Of a stretch of 64,000 bases of DNA, positions 6,831 through 47,929 are shown piece by piece; the stretch's first letter is position 1; each line of letters opens with the position of its first letter. This stretch comes from Tupaia tana (taxonomy: Eukaryota; Chordata; Mammalia; Scandentia; Tupaiidae), in contig JAKSZU010000009.1 in assembly GCA_026018925.1 (NCBI GenBank), forward strand, positions 68,684,949 to 68,748,948, given 5' to 3'. The translations under genes were made by a program, and so were the position numbers. The notes under the pieces were generated by a model, which was given only the letters and a program-made list of their open reading frames with translations, made no database searches and was not told the origin of the DNA.

Positions 6831-7143
6831 CATAGTTTTCAAGCATCCTAGCATCATGAGGCTCCCAGGGATCCTCACCCTATACTGAACCACCTGCAAA
6901 AAGGAGAAACTGCTCTTCAGAACCCTGAACAGAAAGCTCCTCTCGTGGGGACCACATTGCTAACCAAGGCAGAAGAGAGACTAGCACAGAAGCAATTCAC
7001 AGCAAAAGGGAAGCAAACTAGTTCCCAGCCGCAGAAACATTCTCCAAAAAGATTTCCAAAAGTGAATACATCACCCAATGCCTAACATCACAGAAGAGTC
7101 TGAAGTTTGAAACAACAACAAAAAGAAACAAACAAACAAAAAA
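6831..7143 (+). promoter_or_regulatory. L1 B 5' UTR tether between monomers and ORF1
   Basis: This non-repeated segment leads from the last monomer into an A-rich stretch (7110-7143) that resumes as the ORF1 leader after the LTR, at 8124. It is assigned by position only. Confidence 0.55.
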
Positions 7144-8123
7144 TGCTGGGGTCCAGCCTCAGCGGGGGTGGGTTATCTCGATGGAGGCAGCACAGGAAAG
7201 AAAGACTGAGATCTCGGTGCCTTTTCATGCACGTCCTCAGCCAGACACCCCTCAGAGATTGCTCTCTGAAGAGTGACAACTGCTAGGAATCATCGTGCCT
7301 TTTTATTGAAAATGTGATACATGCAAGTAAAGGGAGAGGGGCTACGTGTTTCAATTATCAGCTCATAAAGTTTTTAACAATAGGGAACATAGATTTTATT
7401 CAGGGTTGGATTAAGGGTGGGTCTCGTGCAGTTCCGCAATTGTAGGTGGGTCTCCATGGAATGCAGTTTCGGGAAGGTGGTTCCGGTAAGCAGAGATGAT
7501 TATCAGCTGATGTGGCACAGCAGCCATCTTGTGATTACTGGGAATGGGGCTGAGAAAAGAAAATCTCAAGAATAGATATTAATTCCTATGGATCTTAATA
7601 AAGAATGATACTTATTTAGTTTTATAGGGATCTAAAACTTAATTTGAGGAATCCTAATATATTTATCTATTTCACTTGGTGAGGGCAGAGGTGTCCTGGG
7701 CCAGTTTTGGCCTAATCCTATTTTAAGTAAAGAAAAGATTAAGTTTACCTTAAATGTATTTTGAAGGGCCTTCCAAAGGTCAAGATTATTTCTGCCTAGA
7801 AAGAACTTCAGCCCACCCTCTATTGTGACCATGGAGATAAAGCATTGTAATTAACAGTAGGTGATCAGAGCAAAGGAGAGCGGTCGGTGGACTTCCTGGA
7901 AAATTTTATCGTATACTCAGGATGTATAAGAGAGCTATGTAATTCTTTTATAGTAGTATATTGGGGAGTCAGAGGGGGGTCGCTTCCCAGCAAGGCTGCC
8001 ACAGTTTCCGGAGCAAAATCCTAGGTCGGGGGGAGGCAGTTGCGGCCTTGCCAACGTACTGAACTGACCCGAAGCGGGGAGGCTCAGACAGATCCTGGGG
8101 CCCAGCCGGGTCAGACTCCTCCA
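7144..8123 (-). mobile_element. Solo LTR, copy 1 (class II-like ERV)
   Basis: On the minus strand it starts TG and ends CA. It is about 980 bp and carries an AATAAA signal followed by 'aggcacgatg' near its 3' end. A second copy at 46840-47929 aligns over the whole length, which defines the ends. A-runs flank it, so a 6-bp duplication of AAAAAA is possible but not provable here. No internal retroviral genes adjoin it. It sits in the L1 B leader. Confidence 0.85.
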
Positions 8124-8345
8124 AAAAAAAAAACAGGAAATATGTCTCCATCAAGAGAACACAATAACTCTCTTCCATCTCTTAAAAAACAGAAGTTACC
8201 AAAATGTCAGAGACGCAATTCAGAACATTCATCGTGACAAAACTCTATGTGTTGGAACAGAAAAGAGACAACAAACTCCCGGAAATGAGGAAGTCCTTCC
8301 ACAATTTGAAAGAAGAAATGGATACCATAAGAAAGAATCAAATGG
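8124..8345 (+). pseudogene. L1 B ORF1, first part
   Basis: This is the start of L1 ORF1 (…KKQKLPK…, then 'ELRTF..LDKLYVLEQ..DNKLPEMRKS'-like sequence). It is broken at 8345 by composite element 1 and continues at 10661. Confidence 0.75.
8329..8345 (+). repeat. 5' target-site duplication of composite 1
   Basis: aagaaagaatcaaatgg is repeated exactly at 10661-10677, right after the poly(A). The L1 ORF1 reading resumes without loss after it. Confidence 0.95.
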
Positions 8346-9185
8346 TCCCCGCCTCGCGCGCTGGGGCTGGCGGCGCCCCGCCTTGGGGGCCTGCGTGGCC
8401 CGGGGATCTGCATGGCCCAGGGGCCTGAGCGGGGGCTCCGCCTCGCGCGCGGCAGCCGGGTCCGCACGGCCGGGGGGCTCTGCCTCACGCACCGCAGCCC
8501 GGACTGCCCGGCCCCCGCTGCCTCTCCGGCGCTGAGTGTGTCCCGCGCTCGGCGCCAACGCAGGCCGCCGGGGCTGGTGCGTGGCCGCCGGGCCTGCGCA
8601 TGCGCGTGGCCACCGAGCCTGCTCGTGGCCTCTGGGCCTGAGTGTGGCGGCCGGGCCTGTGCCTGACCGCTGGGCCTGAGCCTGAGCGTGGACACCAGGG
8701 CTGCGCGTGGTGGCCGGGTCTGACTGTGGCCCCCGGGCATGTGCGTGGCCGCCAGGCCTGTGCGTGGCTGCCGGGCCTGCGCCTGCGAGTGGCCACCGGG
8801 CCTGTGCATGGCCGCCGGGTCTGCCCCTGCGCGAGGCCGCTGGGCCTGCGTGAGGCCGCCGGGCCCACGCCTGCGAGTGGCCGCCGGGCCTACGCGTGGC
8901 CTCCGGGCCTGCGTGTGACCGCCGGGCCTGTGTGTGGCCTCTGGGCCTGCATGTGGCCGCCGGGCCTGAGGGTGGCTGCCGGGCCTGCGCCTGTGCGTGG
9001 CTGCCAGCCCGGCGCATGGCCGCTGGCTCAGCGCGTGTCCCCCGACCCAGCGTGTGGCCTCCGGGCCGGAGCGTGGCCGCCGGGCCTGCACGTGGCCGTA
9101 GGGCCGGCGCGTGGCGCCCCTGGCCTGCACGTGGCCGCCGGGCCCGTGTCTGCGTGTGGCCGCCAGCCGCGGGCGGCAAACTGAA
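8346..9185 (+). repeat. CpG-rich VNTR of composite 1
   Basis: Diverged repeats of about 18-25 bp are built on 'gcgtggccgccgggcctg'. They follow a non-repeated GC-rich leader of about 200 bp that contains 'gtgtcccgcgctcggcgcc', which is also found in copy 2. Base use contrasts sharply with the AT-rich L1 around it. Long open frames on both strands here are by-products of GC-richness. Confidence 0.9.
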
Positions 9186-9608
9186 GCCGAAAACTAGGTC
9201 TGAGAACTTGCAGCTACGAGCAACTGAAAGAAACTTTAGCTATCTTAAACCAATTGAGAAATATATTGTATAGGAGGATTTTCTCTGCCTATGGACAGTG
9301 TGAAGATGATGGTTACCAGCCCTGCATTACTGCAGGGAAAAACAAGAACTACTCTACCATTCTTAAGGAAACTAGATATCCAAGGATGACTCACGCTGCA
9401 GATCCCCACAACACCACTCCTGGTAATCACAAGTTGGATGTTGTGTTGCATCAACTGATAATCATCTCTGCTTTCCAGAGCCGCTTTCCTGAGACTATAT
9501 CCCATTGAGATTCACCTGCAATGGCGAAACTGCACGAGACCCACCCTGAATCCAAACTTGAACGGAATCTATGCTCCCTATTGTTGAAAACTTTGTGAGC
9601 TGATGTTT
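9186..9608 (+). repeat. ERV-LTR-derived segment of composite 1
   Basis: From about 9410 ('ctggtaatcacaag') to 9608 it aligns with the sense strand of the solo LTRs: 'cagctgataatcatctctgc', 'cgaaactgcacgagacccac' and 'ctccctattgttgaaaac'. The preceding 220 bp is shared with copy 2. It may come from the same provirus upstream of the LTR, but that is not shown. Confidence 0.85.
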
Positions 9609-9627
9609 GGAAAAAAAAATTTTTTTG

Positions 9628-10303
9628 AAAGAACTGGAGGGTAGGATGGCAGGGAAGGAAGGCAACTGCAGATACTAGAGACAGTATGGGGGAGGTAATG
9701 GGAGTGAGTGGTTGAGGACGGAGGGGAGGGATTCAGGGAACAAACAACACACTTGGTGAACACAGGAGTGAATAGTTGTCTGTTGATGATCTATAAGGTG
9801 ATGTCATTGTTTTGACTGATGTGCACTGTATTCATGCTGGGAAAAACCATGTTGTACACAGTAAAGAGGTGTAATGATTGAAAGTGAATATAGAAAGAAA
9901 AAAAATGGCAGAGGGGGAAAAAAAAAGCAAGAGAACAAATAGAGAGGCATGACGTTGGTGGGACACAGATATGGTCTATTACCTGTTGATGATGTGTATA
10001 GTAGTCTCAACTGGATTGGTCTGAGAAATGTTTCATGTTGGGTAAGGTCTTTTTACTAGCCAAATGATAAGTAGAGATTGACTCTTTATAAAAATAATTG
10101 AAATAACAATAATAACAATCGGGAAAAATAATGAAAAGCTATTGGATGATGAAATGGGGATTGTAGTGTCTCAGTATTGACTGATTGGCATGGTATTCCT
10201 TCTGGAGAAAGAAATGTGATACACTGTAAAGTTATATGTGATTCAATGCAAAATGGACAAGATTATGATGATAATAAAATAAAAAAATAAAAAATAAAAA
10301 AAA
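9628..10303 (+). repeat. L1 3' UTR-like end of composite 1
   Basis: 9640-9890 matches the L1 A 3' UTR (20620-20870; shared 'tgcactgtattcatgctggga'). 9920-10300 matches the reverse complement of the short L1 insert at 55705-56140 ('ctgttgatgatgtgtatagt', 'gattatgatgataataaaa'). It ends in an A-rich tail. Confidence 0.85.
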
Positions 10304-10637
10304 GCTCAAATATACAGAGATGCTGAAATAGACCCCAAATCCTATGAGTTCAACAGCTCCACATTTGACTCAATTTTATTGGTGACCAGTAAATATGCTA
10401 TGCCTGTGTAATTTCCCTTCAATAATATCTTGCCAATATCAACATAGTAGAGACAAGAATTAAAATGAAAAGGTCTAGGAGAAATAGCCTCAAAATCAGT
10501 CAGATTTGGTAACAAGTGTAAAACGGCCAAGTAATATTGGCTACATCCTGGTTGTTGAATTCATGAAATTGCTATTACAAACTAACACACTTATTTGCTA
10601 TGTCCTAATTGCTTGTGCATTAAATTCCAAAATGAGT
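10304..10637 (+). other. Probable 3'-transduced sequence
   Basis: 334 bp lies between the element's own A-rich tail (10273-10303) and a second, pure 25-A tail (10638-10662). It ends with an ATTAAA signal at 10619-10624, 14 nt before the A-run. It matches no other sequence in the window. Read-through of the first poly(A) site at a source locus explains it. Confidence 0.8.
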
Positions 10638-10660
10638 AAAAAAAAAAAAAAAAAAAAAAA

Positions 10661-11430
10661 AAGAAAGAATCAAATGGAACTATTAGAGATGAAGTCTGTA
10701 ATGCAGGAAATCAAAACAACTTCTGAAAGTATTAAAAGCCAATTAGACCATGCTATTCATCTTATGTTGAAGATTGAATCTTGAACATAGAAGACAAAAC
10801 CTATGACCTGGAAAATAAAGACCAAAAAGGCAGAGAAAATAACAAAAAAAATGAAGGTAATATGTGAGAAATACTATATTCCATTAAATAGCCAAATGTC
10901 TGAATAATTGGTATCCCATAGGGTAAAGAAACTAATAAAGGCATTGAAAAATCTATTTCATGAAATCCTGGAAGAAAACTTTCCAAGTCTAGAGAAGCAC
11001 TCAAACATCCAGATCCAAGAAATACGAAGTACCCCAAATAGAAACAACCCAAGAAGATCCTCTCCATGATGCATCTTAGCCAGACTGGCCAAAACCACAG
11101 ACAAAGACAAAATACTAAAACTGGCAAGAGAGAAACAGCAAGTGACTTACAAGGTCACCCCATCAGGCTAACACAGCACCCTTCAACAAAAACAATATAA
11201 GCAAGGAAAGAATGGGAAGACATATTGAAAGTGTTAAGAGAGAAACAATTTCAACCAAGATTATTATGTCCAGCAAGATTATCTTTCATATGGGAAAAAA
11301 AAAGATTAAAATCTTCTCAGACAAACAAAACCTGAAAGGATTTGCCAACACCACACTAGCTCTTCAAGAAACTCTGGAGAGAGTCCTGTTCCAGGAAAAC
11401 TAAAAATTGAACAGACAGAAATAAGAGAAT
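10661..11430 (+). pseudogene. L1 B ORF1, second part
   Basis: Continues ORF1 directly after the duplication (10661-10677), through coiled-coil, RRM and C-terminal regions ('RQ.QVTYKG.P', 'SARLSF', 'FANTTLALQETLE'). In-frame stops (for example after 10784) inactivate it. Confidence 0.75.
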
Positions 11431-16143: not shown

Positions 16144-17930
16144 TGGACCAGTGGATGGTATAATGTTTACGTTGCTGGATTTCCACATAATCAACCATGG
16201 TTTGAGTCTCAGATCTGGTGGCTTAAACTTGAATCAGGTGCATGTGCATGCATAACCAAGATCCTGAGAAAAGAAGAGATTGAGGTAGATGCATGTAAAA
16301 ATAGAGTGAATGGGGGGCGGCCGGGGCGCGGGGCTCTGCTTCGCATGCTGGCCGGGCTTGCGTGGCCTGGCCTATGCGGCCGGGGCTCTGCTTTGCGTGC
16401 CGGCCCGGCCGGGGCTCTGCTCCGTGTGCCGCGGCCCGGACCGCCCGGCCCCTGCTGCCTCTCTGACGCTGGGTGTGTCCCACGCTCGGCGCCGACGCGG
16501 GCCAGCGGCGCGGATCGGCCGAGGTCACCGTCCTTCCTTTCTTTGGCCGGGCGGGTGGGCGGGAGGTGGCGCGGGGACCCGCGCGCATTTGCGCGCTGGG
16601 GACTGGCGTGTGGCCGCCAGGCCAGCGCATGGCCACTGGGCCGGCGCCTGTGCGCAGCAGCCAGGCCTGCCCCTGTGTACAGCCGCCGGGCCTGAGCGTG
16701 GTCACTGAGCCGGTGCGTGGTTGCCGGGCCGGCGTGTGGTCCCCGGGCTGGCGCGGGGCTGCTGGGCCGGCGCGTGGCCCCGGGCCTGCGCATGGCCGCC
16801 GGGTCTGAGCGTGGCCGCCAGGCCAGTGCCTATGCTTGGCCGCCGGGCCTGTGCGCGTGGCCCCCGGGCCTGTGGGTGGCCGATGGGCCTGAGCGTGGCT
16901 GCCGGGTCTGAGCGTGGCTGCCGGGCCTGCACCTGCACGTGGCCCCTGGACCTGTGCATGGCAACCGGGCCTGCGCCTGCGAGTGGCCGCCGTGCCTGAG
17001 CGTGGCTGCCAGGCCTGCGCCTGCGCGTGGCCGCCGGCCGCGGGCGGCAAGCTGAAGCCAAAAACAAGGATTAAGAACTTGCAACTTTAAGCAACAGAAA
17101 GAAACTTAAGCTGTCTTAAACCAATTGAGAAATATATTGTATGGGAGGATTGTCTCTGCCTATGGACAGTGAGAGGATGATGGTTGCCAGCCCTGCATTA
17201 CCTCAGGGAAGAACAGGAACTATTCTGCCATTCTTGGGGAGGCCAGATGCCCGAGGATGACTCGCATTGCAGATCCCCACAGCACCATTCCTGGTGGTCA
17301 CAGGTTGGATGCTGTGCCGCATCAACTGATAACCATCTCTGCTTAACAGAGCCTCTTTCCTGAAACTGTTCCGTGGAGACTCACCTGCAGTTGCGGAACT
17401 GCACAGGACCCACCCTTGATCCAACCCTGAGTAGAATCTGTGTTCCCTGTTGTTGAAGACTGTATGAGCTGATAATTGAAAAAAAAAAAAAAAACAACTG
17501 AGGGAACTGGAGGGTATGGTGGCAGGGATGGCAGCTGCAGATGCTGGAGACAGTGTGGGAGAGGTGATGGGGGTGAGTGATGGAGGGCGGAGGAGGGGAG
17601 GGATTCAGGGAGCAAACAACACACTTAATAGACACAAAAATGAAAAGTTGTCTGTTGATAATGTATATGGTAATATTGTCTTGACTGATGTGCACTGTAC
17701 TCATGCTGGGAAAAACCATGTTGTACACTGTGAAGATGTACATTGCACAATGATATAAAAAAAAAAGTCAGCACTCTGGCAAAGGGAGAAAGATCTGAAG
17801 ATATGATAGTGGAAAGGATGAATGTGGATGCCAGAGGCTGCAGGGGAGGGGAGTGGGTGGTGGAGAGTGGGCGTGAGGGGCAAAGAGAAGAAACATTTAA
17901 CACCAAAAAAATGTAGAGTTCTCTGTTGAA

Positions 17931-17980
<50 letters not shown>

Positions 17981-18174
17981 TGTATACATCATAATGGGGA
18001 CTTTATGTAAAATGTGAATTTAATTGATCTGAGAAAGAAAAATAAAAGATAAAAAAAAAAGAAGAGATTGAGACATGGCCATCTCTCCGGGGCAGGGGGT
18101 GATTTCTCTTTCTGTCTCTCTTTGTCTTTCTGGAGAGCATGTGTGCTCTATAACAAAAAAAAAGTCTTAAAAAA
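16144..18174 (+). mobile_element. tRNA-derived SINE split by composite 2
   Basis: The SINE head and body run 16144-16284 and the 3' part runs 18073-18174. The L1 repeat aagactcatagc is found on both sides (16132-16143 and near 18175-18187). Composite 2 sits at 'agaagagattgag'. Confidence 0.85.
16285..18058 (+). mobile_element. SVA-like composite retroelement, copy 2
   Basis: It has the same order as copy 1: a 5' piece of 28 bp not found in copy 1 (16285-16312); a GC-rich leader and VNTR (16313-17050); the ERV-LTR-containing segment (17051-17467); an internal A-run (17468-17486); L1 3' UTR-like sequence (about 17500-17757); and a further tail block with a (TA)n tract (17934-17972) and a final A-run (18051-18060). 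A 14-bp duplication aagaagagattgag flanks it (16271-16284 and 18059-18072). It has no 3' transduction like that of copy 1. Confidence 0.9.
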
Positions 18175-19254: not shown

Positions 19255-21690
19255 CACATGTAATTCTTATAAACTACCACAGACATTCCTCACAGAAATA
19301 GAAAAAATAATCATAAAATTTGTCTGGAATCATAAAAGGCCTGGTATTGCCTAACCTATAGTGTCCAAAAATGATAAAGTAGGAGGCATCTCACTTTCTG
19401 ACCTCAAAATATATTACAAAGATGTGATAATCAGAACGTTACGGTACTGGCACAAAAACAGGCAGATAGAATAGAACTATTAAACCAGAAATTACCCCAA
19501 AACATTCAGCCAACTGATTTTCAACAAAGGACACAAACCACCTGGTGGGGAAAAGAAAATCTCTTCAGCAAATAGTGCTGATAAAACTAGATATCCATGT
19601 AAAGAAAACTAAAATTGGACCCCTATCTCTCACTATTAACAAAAATCAACTCAAATTGGACTATAGATCTAAACATAAAACCTCAAGCTATAAAACCACT
19701 GGTGGAAAAAAATGTGAAATTCTTGAAAACATCAGAGTAGGCAAAGACTTGGTAAATAAAACCCCCAAAACACAGCCATAATCTTAAAAAGAAAAGTGGA
19801 ATTACCTCAGGTGAAAAAGCTTCTGCACAGCAAAAGAAACATGAATTAGAGTGAGGAGACAACCCTCAGATTTGGAATATATTTGTAGATGAGACTATGC
19901 CTCAGATAAGGGACTGATAACCAGAATACACAAGGAACTCAAGTAGCTTACCCACAAAAATCTTAATATAATCAATCCAATCAAGTAATGGGCAAAGGAG
20001 CTGAACAGATAACTCTCTAGAGACATACATACAGCCAAAAAGCAAATAAAAATATACTCACCATCTCTTACCATGAAGGAAATATAAATCAAAACCACAA
20101 TGAATTACTGCTTGACCTCAATCATAATGGTTAAGTTTAAAAATGATAAAGAATGATAAGTGCTGTCGAGGCTGTGGTGAAAAGAGAACCCTCTTACAAT
20201 GTTGGTGTTAGTACAACCACTGTGGATATTGATATAGAAGGTCTCCAGAAACCTACAAATAGAACTACCATATGACCCAGTAATTCCACTCTTAGGTATC
20301 TACCTAAAGGACAGGAAAACCCTCAGTCAGAAAAATAATTTTATGTACATGTTAATTGAAGCATCATTCACAGTTGTTAGGACATAGAATCAACCCAAAT
20401 GTCCAAGAACAGATAAATGAAATGAAAAAATATGGTATATGTATTCTATGGAATACTACTCAGTCATGAAAAACAATGAGATCTTGATATTTGATACAAA
20501 GTGGACAGATACGGAAGATTTAATGCTAAGTAAAGCAGCCCAGACTATGAAAGACAGACATTGTACATTCCCACTTAAGATATACCAAATGTCTGTGCTC
20601 TATAGCAGAAACAAAGATTGATATAATAACAGGGAAGGCAGCTATAGATATTATAGATAGTATAGGATGGGGTTTGTATAGAGAGTGGGTAATAGTTGGT
20701 GGGAAGGAGAGGATCAGGAAAAAAACGAACAAGTAGAACTTTAAACAGACACAAAAATGAAAAGCTATTTGTTATAATGTGTATGGTAATGTCTTTGACT
20801 TGACTAATATGCACTGTATTCATGCTGGGAAAAAACGTTTTTTACACTGTAAAGATATACAGTGATTAAATGTAAATTTTTTAAATGTGAAAAAAATTCC
20901 TATGTGAACACATGACATTGAATAGCCCAAACATTCTTGAGAAATAAGAGAAAAGCTACAGTCCTTATACTTCTTGACTTTAACTATATTACAAAGTTAC
21001 AATAGTTAATACAGTATGGTAGTGGCATAAACACAAACAGGTAGGCTAACAGAACAGAATAGAAACCCCAGAAATGCACCCATGCATATGCAGTCACAAC
21101 AGCTCTTCCTTGAAGGGTATCCAGAATACATAATGGGAAAAAGGTAGCCTTCATGAAATGGTGCTTGGAAGACTAAATATCCACATGTGAAATATTGAAA
21201 TTGGACCCTTATCTTACACCATACATGGAAATCAACTCAAAATGAATTAAAGACTTAAGCCTAAGACCCAATGCATAAATCTCCTGGAAAATAACATAGG
21301 AAAATATTTTCTTCACTTTGGTAACATCAATTTCTTGTAGATGACACCAAAAGCACAAGCAACAAAAGCACAAATAGAAATGTGGACTACATCAAACTTA
21401 AAATCTTTTAAATAATAAATGAAATAATCAAGAGAATGAAATGATAAAATGCAGGATGAAAAAAATTTGCAAACCATATAACTGACAACAGATTAACATG
21501 AAAAATAAATAAGGAACTTCTACAACTGAATAGTAAAGAAAAAAAAAAAAACTAAAAACTAGCCAAGGCCTTGAATAGGCATTTCTCCAAAAATGACCCA
21601 AAGTTACAAGTGCCAACATTTATATGAATCAGTATTACTTCACACCTCTTAGGAGGACTATTATTTTAAAAATTAAAAATAAAATGGATA

Positions 21691-43214: not shown

Positions 43215-44242
<1,028 letters not shown>

Positions 44243-44359: not shown

Positions 44360-44530
44360 TGTCTGTAAAGGGGGTGGAGGGAGTGTGGGGGTTAGGGCTG
44401 GGGGTGTGGGAAGGGTGGGGTGTGGGGTAGGTGGGAGGTGGAGAGGATTGGGTGTGGGGTCGGTGGGAGGTGGGGAGGGTGGGGTGTGGGGTCGGTGGAA
44501 GATGGGGGGAGTAAGGGGGTAGGAACAGGA
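44360..44530 (+). repeat. G-rich minisatellite
   Basis: Repeats of about 20-45 bp such as 'ggggtgtggggtcggtggga' with many GGG/GGGG runs on the plus strand. Four-run spacing allows G-quadruplex formation. Confidence 0.85.
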
Positions 44531-46679: not shown

Positions 46680-46839
46680 AATTCATGTACTGATACTACC
46701 CTTGCATCCTGCACATCCTCCTTGGTGGCAGTAATCTGTAATCCCTCTAGGAATGTGGTGTCCCTTTTGATTTACTAGTAGCTAGAAGCAGTTCTGCAAA
46801 TTCCACTGGGCCTGCCCCACCACAATAGCCCTCATCCCA
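46680..46839 (-). mobile_element. ERVL-type relic B, start of pol
   Basis: 'taatccctctaggaatgtggtgtccc' parallels relic A ('caatccctccaggaatgtggtattgc', near 41230), so the two come from the same place in pol. The LTR at 46840 interrupts it and it resumes at 47936. Confidence 0.7.
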
Positions 46840-47929
46840 TGCCGGGGACCAGCCTCGGCGGGGGTGGGTTATCTCGACGGAGGCGGCGCAGGTGAACAGA
46901 AGACACAGGCCTCGATGCCTTTTCAGGCACGTCCTATGCTGGACACCCCCCAGAGATCGCTCTCTGGGGAGTGACAACTGCTAGGGATCATCGTGCCTTT
47001 TTATTGAAAATGTGTTACATGCAAGTAAAGGGAGAGGGGCTAGTGTTTCAATTATCAGCTCATAAAGGTTTTAACAAAAGGGAACATAGATTCTATTCAG
47101 GGTTGGATTAAGGGTGGGTCTCATGCAGCTCAGGGTTGGATTAAGGGTGGGTCTCGTGCAGTTCCGCATTTGTAGGTGGGTCTCCATGGAATTGTAGGTG
47201 GGTCTCCATAGAATGCAGTTTTGGGAAGGCGGTTCCGGTAAGCAGAGATGATTATCAGCTGATGGGGCGCAGCAGCCATTTTGTGATTACCAGGAATGGC
47301 TCTGAGAAAAGAAAATCTCAAGAATAGATATTAGTTCCTCTGGATCTTAATAAAGAATGATACTTACATAGTTTTATAGGGATCTAAAACTTGATTTGAG
47401 GAGTCCTAAAATATTTATCTATTTCGCTTGGTGAGGGCGGAGGTGTCCTGGGCCAGTTTTGGCCTAATCCTATTTTAAGTAAAGAAAGGATTAAGTTTAC
47501 CTTAAATGTATTTTGAAGGGCCTTCCAAAGGTCAAGATTATTTCTGCCTAGATAGAACTTCAGCCCACCCTCTACTGTGACCATGGAGATAAAGCATTGT
47601 AATTAATAGTAGGTGATTATAGCAAAGGGGAGCGGTCGGGGGAGTTCCTGGAAAATTTTATCATATACTCAGGATGTATAAGAGAGCTATGCGATTCTTT
47701 TATAGTAGTAAATTGGGGAGTCAGAGGGGGGTCGCTTCCCAGCAAGGCTACCAGTTTTCTGGAGCAAATAGCAAGCAGCCTTGCTGACATGCTAATTGAC
47801 CCAAGCTTTTTTCCAAGGTCAGGGGGTGCACAACAGTGGCTTTGCCAGCATATTGATCTTGACCGGAAGGAGCTCAAAGGTCTGGGGGCTCAGACAGATC
47901 CTGGGGCCTCACCGGGTCGGACTCCTCCA
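46840..47929 (-). mobile_element. Solo LTR, copy 2 (class II-like ERV)
   Basis: Same LTR as 7144-8123. It starts TG and ends CA on the minus strand, with a perfect 6-bp duplication atccca (46834-46839 and 47930-47935). The 1090-bp length includes local tandem duplications near 47097-47215 and extra sequence near 47755-47860. A 6-bp duplication fits class II (betaretrovirus-like) ERVs. Confidence 0.9.

Follow-up and report, generated by a model that had tools for sequence, protein, structure and literature searches.

A putative L1-mobilised VNTR composite family of SVA-like design in Tupaia tana

The window is the whole 64,000-nucleotide stretch of Tupaia tana DNA that was analysed. It contains two composite retroelements, element 1 and element 2, and two LTRs of one ERV family (Table 1). 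Element 1 lies at 8346-10660. It is bounded by the exact 17-bp TSD AAGAAAGAATCAAATGG, with 8329-8345 identical to 10661-10677, as the preliminary description had it. Element 2 lies at 16285-18056 and has a TSD of 16 bp. An open frame at 43241-44242 (+) encodes a complete ubiquitin-conjugating enzyme domain (Pfam UQ_con, E 2e-52) and has the appearance of an intronless retrocopy of a ubiquitin-conjugating enzyme gene, presumably of the UBE2D type. A G-rich 16/32-bp tandem repeat was found by TRF just 3' of this frame, at 44401-44507.

Table 1. Coordinates of elements 1 and 2 and of the related LTRs in the window
Feature	Position	Strand	Basis or match
Element 1, 5' TSD, 17 bp	8329..8345	+	identical to 10661-10677
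Element 1, GC-rich leader; 5' end variable from copy to copy	8346..8562	+	leader match in 22/26 type I loci
Element 1, GC-rich VNTR, units mostly 19 and 25 bp	8563..9175	+	TRF and spacing counts; match of at least 60 bp in 25/26 type I loci
Element 1, SEG5, 238 bp	9176..9413	+	in 26/26 type I loci (belongs to the search query); no source matched
Element 1, SEG3, ERV LTR fragment (LTR positions ~572-775 of 981), sense	9414..9612	+	80-81% to LTR 7143-8123 (-)
Element 1, A-rich run at SEG3/L1A junction, length-variable	9611..9627	+	present in the 23/26 type I loci with a listable junction
Element 1, L1A, first L1 3'UTR-like module	9628..9890	+	in 26/26 type I loci
Element 1, A-rich spacer between L1A and L1B	9891..9916	+	junction listing
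Element 1, L1B, second L1 3'UTR module	9917..10283	+	in 26/26 type I loci; 82% to L1 end 56071-55703 (-)
Element 1, A-rich tail; end point of most other fetched type I copies	10271..10302	+	3' TSD copies come next
Element 1, private 3' tail (335 bp), candidate 3' transduction	10303..10637	+	genome matches in the window and at C242:30477246-30477582 only
Element 1, poly(A) tail	10638..10660	+	sequence
Element 1, 3' TSD, 17 bp	10661..10677	+	identical to 8329-8345
Element 2, 5' TSD, 16 bp; within a tRNA-derived-looking SINE (by eye)	16269..16284	+
Element 2, leader; last ~94 bp missing from 20 type I loci	16285..16605	+
Element 2, VNTR	16606..17037	+	TRF
Element 2, SEG5 and LTR-derived SEG3	17042..17478	+
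Element 2, A-run	17479..17495	+	sequence
Element 2, L1A	17496..17755	+	part 83% to L1 end 20744-20864
Element 2, type II last module with AT microsatellite	17756..18052	+	62-68% to L1A (weak)
Element 2, 3' TSD	18057..18072	+
LTR from the source ERV family of SEG3; TG...CA ends read by eye	7143..8123	-	sequence match to SEG3
Second LTR of the same ERV family	46839..47929	-	sequence match

The VNTR of element 1 contains TRF arrays of period 19, 38, and 44 inside 8563-9144. Across 16 copies, most motifs are spaced by 19 or 25 bp, in agreement with the unit of about 18-25 bp first proposed. A 437-bp segment (SEG) follows, made up of SEG5 and SEG3. SEG as a whole had been described as homologous to an ERV LTR. 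The homology is real at 9414-9612, which is 81% identical to 7547-7349 (minus strand) and also matches 47299-47046, but it is confined to the last ~200 bp; the other 238 bp have no LTR match. SEG5 gave no match above shuffles to the two window LTRs. Comparison with the rest of the window, with the flanks of the fetched copies, and with three more LTR loci (L055-L057) also yielded no source for it. The LTR family is large. Query 7560-8107 (minus strand) returned 2064 candidates, and all 40 that were scored were at least 93% identical. Pfam found nothing on the ORF adjoining the second LTR.

The A-run reported after the LTR segment is present. The L1 3' UTR-like end reported next is indeed L1-like but consists of two successive modules, L1A and L1B, not one. 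The second half of L1A (9760-9889) is 76% identical by BLAST to a window L1 end (20749-20877); the likeness of its first half to the start of the L1 3'UTR was seen by eye only. L1B is 79-80% identical to L1 ends in the flanks of copies L026 and L027. Poly(A) had been placed after the L1 end. It is present, but the last 335 bp before it are private to the window copy. The idea that L1B is itself a transduction peculiar to the window copy was rejected, as L1B occurs in 26/26 fetched type I copies. Rfam gave 0 matches at the gathering threshold, and ARAGORN gave 0 genes.

Copies that carry L1A followed by L1B, as element 1 does, are referred to as type I. The 2.95-Gb assembly (1198 contigs) was searched with 9186-9608, which lies in SEG only. 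This search had been set beforehand as a test. It returned 2349 first-look candidates, so the family is not limited to the two window copies. The 40 candidates that were scored are 96-100% identical to the query over nearly its whole length. We fetched 26 of these 40 type I copies with their flanks, the window copy included (20 best-ranked and 6 lower-ranked). Loci L001-L008 repeat type I places already fetched, and L029, L049, L052, and L054 are query places; all of these were left out. SEG, L1A, and L1B have the same order and orientation in 26/26 copies. A VNTR match of at least 60 bp is present in 25/26; L012 retains the VNTR end only. Because the query was SEG only, the VNTR, L1A, and L1B count as independent observations. 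The SEG/L1A junction could be listed in 23/26 loci, with L026, L035, and L036 left out. Four copies (L023, L026, L035, and L036) have an L1B that is shortened, split, or diverged. Tupaia copies L012 and L044 contain tRNA-derived-looking SINEs (by eye), in L012 between L1A and L1B.

Exact TSDs of 8-24 bp were found in 21/26 type I copies (some lengths count leading A's). Fourteen of them were checked by script, those of L012 and L034 were read by eye, and five came from lower-ranked copies. The TSD is imperfect in L014 and L021. No TSD was found in L015, L024, and L027 (3/26). The L1 endonuclease prefers a T or C before an A-rich start. T or C precedes the A-rich start in 9/14 script-checked TSDs, and the preceding base is G (L011, L023) or A (L018, L022, L025) in the other 5/14. 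The 14 script-checked copies are 1.8-2.3 kb long. Copies L012, L015, L021, and L035 are truncated at the 5' end within the VNTR.

These ends bear on the possibility that the element is a piece of an LTR retrotransposon or ERV amplified with its provirus. About 200 bp of the element are LTR-derived, as such an origin would have it. This LTR part stops ~42 bp short of the LTR's AATAAA (by eye), and no other LTR portion matched at SEG in the 20 best-ranked loci. The window LTR at 7143-8123 is a separate neighbour. The copies finish in A-tails, with the TSDs given above. LTR retrotransposons have TG..CA ends and a short TSD of fixed length, and the 14 script-checked copies have a GC-rich start, an A-rich end, and TSDs of 10-24 bp. 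Amplification with a provirus is therefore very improbable.

The heads of 16 copies have a GC content of 0.77-0.81 and a CpG observed/expected ratio of 0.74-0.89, and the flanks have a ratio of 0.03-0.48. Measured from SEG to L1B, the 20 best-ranked type I copies differ from their majority sequence by 0.8-3.4%, with a pairwise mean of 2.85%. The mammalian neutral rate is ~2 per billion sites per year. At that rate the age of type I would be a few million years, as a rough guide from a young-end sample. The fetched copies are high-scoring matches and so represent the young end; older or rearranged copies are under-sampled, and ages are biased young.

Element 2 had been given the bounds 16285-18058 and the same order of parts as element 1. 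The order holds through L1A, but the last module is different, the 3' bound is 18056, and the copy belongs to a separate subfamily (type II). The last module is perhaps another L1 3'UTR, to judge from its weak likeness to L1A. An AT-rich 28-bp stretch (16285-16312) lies ahead of the GC-rich leader of element 2. Used as a query, it had no match besides itself in the window or in the type I loci, and it is possibly a 5' transduction of element 2.

The 3' part of element 2 returned 4157 candidates as a query, which may include type I copies via L1A. Among the 40 that were scored, 1 was the query itself, 24 matched almost all of the query at 94-97% identity, 14 were 89-93% identical, and 1 was partial. 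All 5 fetched type II relatives (L038-L042) contain the leader, VNTR, SEG, LTR part, L1A, and the same last module. Pairwise divergence among the six copies, element 2 included, is 1.6-3.0% (mean, 2.2%). TSDs were found for element 2, L038, L039, and L041. None was found in L040 and L042, and the heads of both run to the end of the fetched stretch.

The type II leader returned 1277 candidates. Scoring of 40 of these gave 45 matches, of which 44 are at least 90% identical. The five loci besides the window (L044-L048) all continue into the VNTR and SEG, i.e., they are family members. No leader source outside the family was found in this genome search, in which these five loci were examined. Paired leader matches lie 217-238 bp apart at C975:117536887, C753:12780349, C297:47895758, C297:55361678, and C220:29347680. 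It is as if the leader had been duplicated in tandem at these five places; the sequence was seen for L044 alone. From their order and divergence, type I and type II are best described as two young subfamilies that share a head design and differ in their 3' ends.

The two window copies are only 8 kb apart, which raises the question of a single segmental duplication or of a chance neighbourhood of unrelated repeats. Element 2 is 16% diverged from the type I majority. The TSDs, targets, and flanking bases are individual to each copy, and each copy has its own relatives across the genome. The order of parts is conserved in 26/26 type I and 5/5 type II copies, most of them with their own TSDs. Dispersed copies with TSDs of their own reject the two-copy reading, and we give a single duplication or chance neighbourhood practically no probability.

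Hominoid SVA consists of a VNTR, an ERV-K-derived SINE-R, and poly(A) and is mobilised by L1. LAVA, from gibbon, keeps the CT/Alu-like 5' part, carries Alu and L1 pieces at its 3' end, and is not known to have an LTR segment. The Tupaia family resembles SVA in its succession of GC-rich VNTR, ERV-LTR-derived segment, and poly(A), in its TSDs, in its length of ~2 kb, and in its private 3' tails. The poly(A) is accompanied by L1-type TSDs, exact in 21/26 type I copies. The LTR-derived piece is present in the 3' part, where SVA has its own, the HERV-K SINE-R. LAVA is likewise a VNTR composite, and its name reflects the L1 fragment in its 3' part.

SVA, LAVA, PVA, and FVA have a common CT/Alu-like head and are called hominoid-specific in PMC4432496, which gives SVA2, present in macaque too, as their common ancestor. 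The GC-rich central VNTR of the Tupaia family has units of 19/25 bp, whereas 30-50 bp is given for SVA (PMC4432496). About 2700 copies of SVA are cited for human (PMC4982230), against 2349 first-look candidates here. PVA and FVA of gibbon combine a common head with swapped 3' modules, which may be compared with type I and type II. They differ in having 3' modules of their own from PTGR2 or FRAM and their own CT/Alu-like 5' part, as outlined in PMC4432496. Unlike SVA, the Tupaia family has L1 3'UTR-like modules after the LTR segment, and no Alu was seen in the host sequence.

The matching order of GC-rich head, VNTR, ERV-derived part, and poly(A) could in principle reflect common descent, with the Tupaia element a diverged member of the SVA/LAVA lineage. 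An Alu sequence was compared with the first 330 bp of 15 heads on both strands. All 30 tests fell within shuffles: in each, between 9 and 91 of the 100 shuffles scored at least as high. CCCTCT occurs 0 times in the 15 heads, and the reverse word occurs once, in L018. The window and the 26 type I loci likewise yielded no Alu match. Common descent via an Alu-like head was rejected on the shuffle tests, and membership of the SVA/LAVA lineage is highly unlikely. Since the Alu-like and CCCTCT parts were not found, a separate origin is supported. The independent SVA-like family proposed in the preliminary description is supported by this result and by the conserved order. The Tupaia element is probably SVA-like in its working and not SVA by descent. 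In the literature search, no title or abstract start among the matches listed names a VNTR composite outside apes and macaque; subscription papers, preprints, Dfam, and Repbase were outside its scope.

In 4/26 type I copies, additional 3' sequence precedes the closing A-run and the TSD: 335 bp in the window copy, ~170 bp in L028, ~370 bp in L031, and ~25 bp in L014. The first three tails were searched; that of L014 was too short. Each of these three has one other place in the genome search. The donor of the window tail is C242:30477246-30477582, with 8 mismatches in 334 bp. The L028 tail matches C420:51047762-51047929 at 97%. The L031 tail matches C309:150749718-150750704 in two pieces, at 99.6% and 98.9%. 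Each of the three tails closes 12-15 nt past an ATTAAA (by eye), which in the window copy lies ~20 bp before the tail end; the C309 donor has ACTAAA there. The two pieces of the C309 donor (L050) are separated by a ~610-bp TG..CA insert with a 6-bp duplication, which is solo-LTR-like. The insert is in the assembled C309 allele and not in the L031 tail, so it is younger than the tail event or polymorphic.

The composite is absent from the three donor loci within ~1.5 kb on each side, as read in the sequence and, for C309 and C420, as BLAST using the modules showed too. With all three donor loci empty in the assembly, a parental copy of a transduction did not come to light. The parents may have been polymorphic and not part of the haplotype assembled here, or they may have been lost; the alternative is that template switching added the tails. 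If the 3' ends arose mainly by switching, L1 reverse transcriptase would start on L1 or cellular poly(A) RNA and move over to the composite RNA at its poly(A) tail, and the donors would never have held the element. The 3/3 empty donors and the A-run at the listed junctions (23/26 type I loci) fit this account. Empty donor sites are equally expected from lost or polymorphic parents. The donor boundaries TCT/AAAAAAGG, GCT/AAAGATG, and TTC/AAAATAG (slash at the boundary) resemble L1 endonuclease sites in 3/3 cases. This favours 3' transduction, which predicts such sites, although an A-rich switch point would have much the same appearance and there are only three cases. Template switching as the main source of the 3' ends is thus rather unlikely, though it retains some weight.

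L1 template-switch chimeras such as U6/L1 and Alu/L1 are known, and they too have foreign RNA fused to an L1 3' end (PMC13174262). They are described as separate chimeric insertions in PMC13174262, whereas the Tupaia chimera appears to have become an amplifying family that was extended again.

The copies of the family are dispersed, keep one order of parts, carry the marks of L1-type insertion, and diverge little; A-runs stand at the module joints. The family is very probably an independently assembled, non-autonomous, L1-mobilised VNTR composite, extended by the capture of one 3' end after another. The CpG- and GC-rich head of leader and VNTR would be the probable promoter side. Transcription would start in the head, cross the LTR-derived segment and the L1 3'UTR-like modules, and end at a poly(A) site. 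The composite RNA would then be inserted in trans by L1 proteins through target-primed reverse transcription, as the TSDs, A-tails, A-rich target sites, and 5' truncation suggest. The L1-like 3' ends might in addition help L1 to recognise the RNA, as first suggested. Growth at the 3' end may have been stepwise. Every module closes with what may be a fossil A-run, to which the next captured 3' end would have been attached. From the nested structure, L1A would have been captured first, then L1B (type I) or another end (type II), and then private genomic tails in single copies.

A fuller account is offered tentatively, as one possibility. An SVA-type composite may have arisen independently outside primates. 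It may have captured 3' ends repeatedly, first from L1 3'UTRs and later from host transcripts, with template switching onto polyadenylated RNAs as one of the routes. The family would then be a visible record of stepwise assembly and might still be segregating.

The steps of assembly can be read from the two subfamilies with their one head design and different 3' ends, from the A-runs between modules, and from the recent private tails. The CT/Alu-like head, which is given as the minimal active human SVA in PMC4432496, was not found in the Tupaia family, and this would provide a natural test of which parts matter. The findings suggest that the unusual SVA-type design has evolved on more than one occasion. 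If a second element of the same order was indeed assembled separately, this would argue that the order itself suits L1-driven spread.
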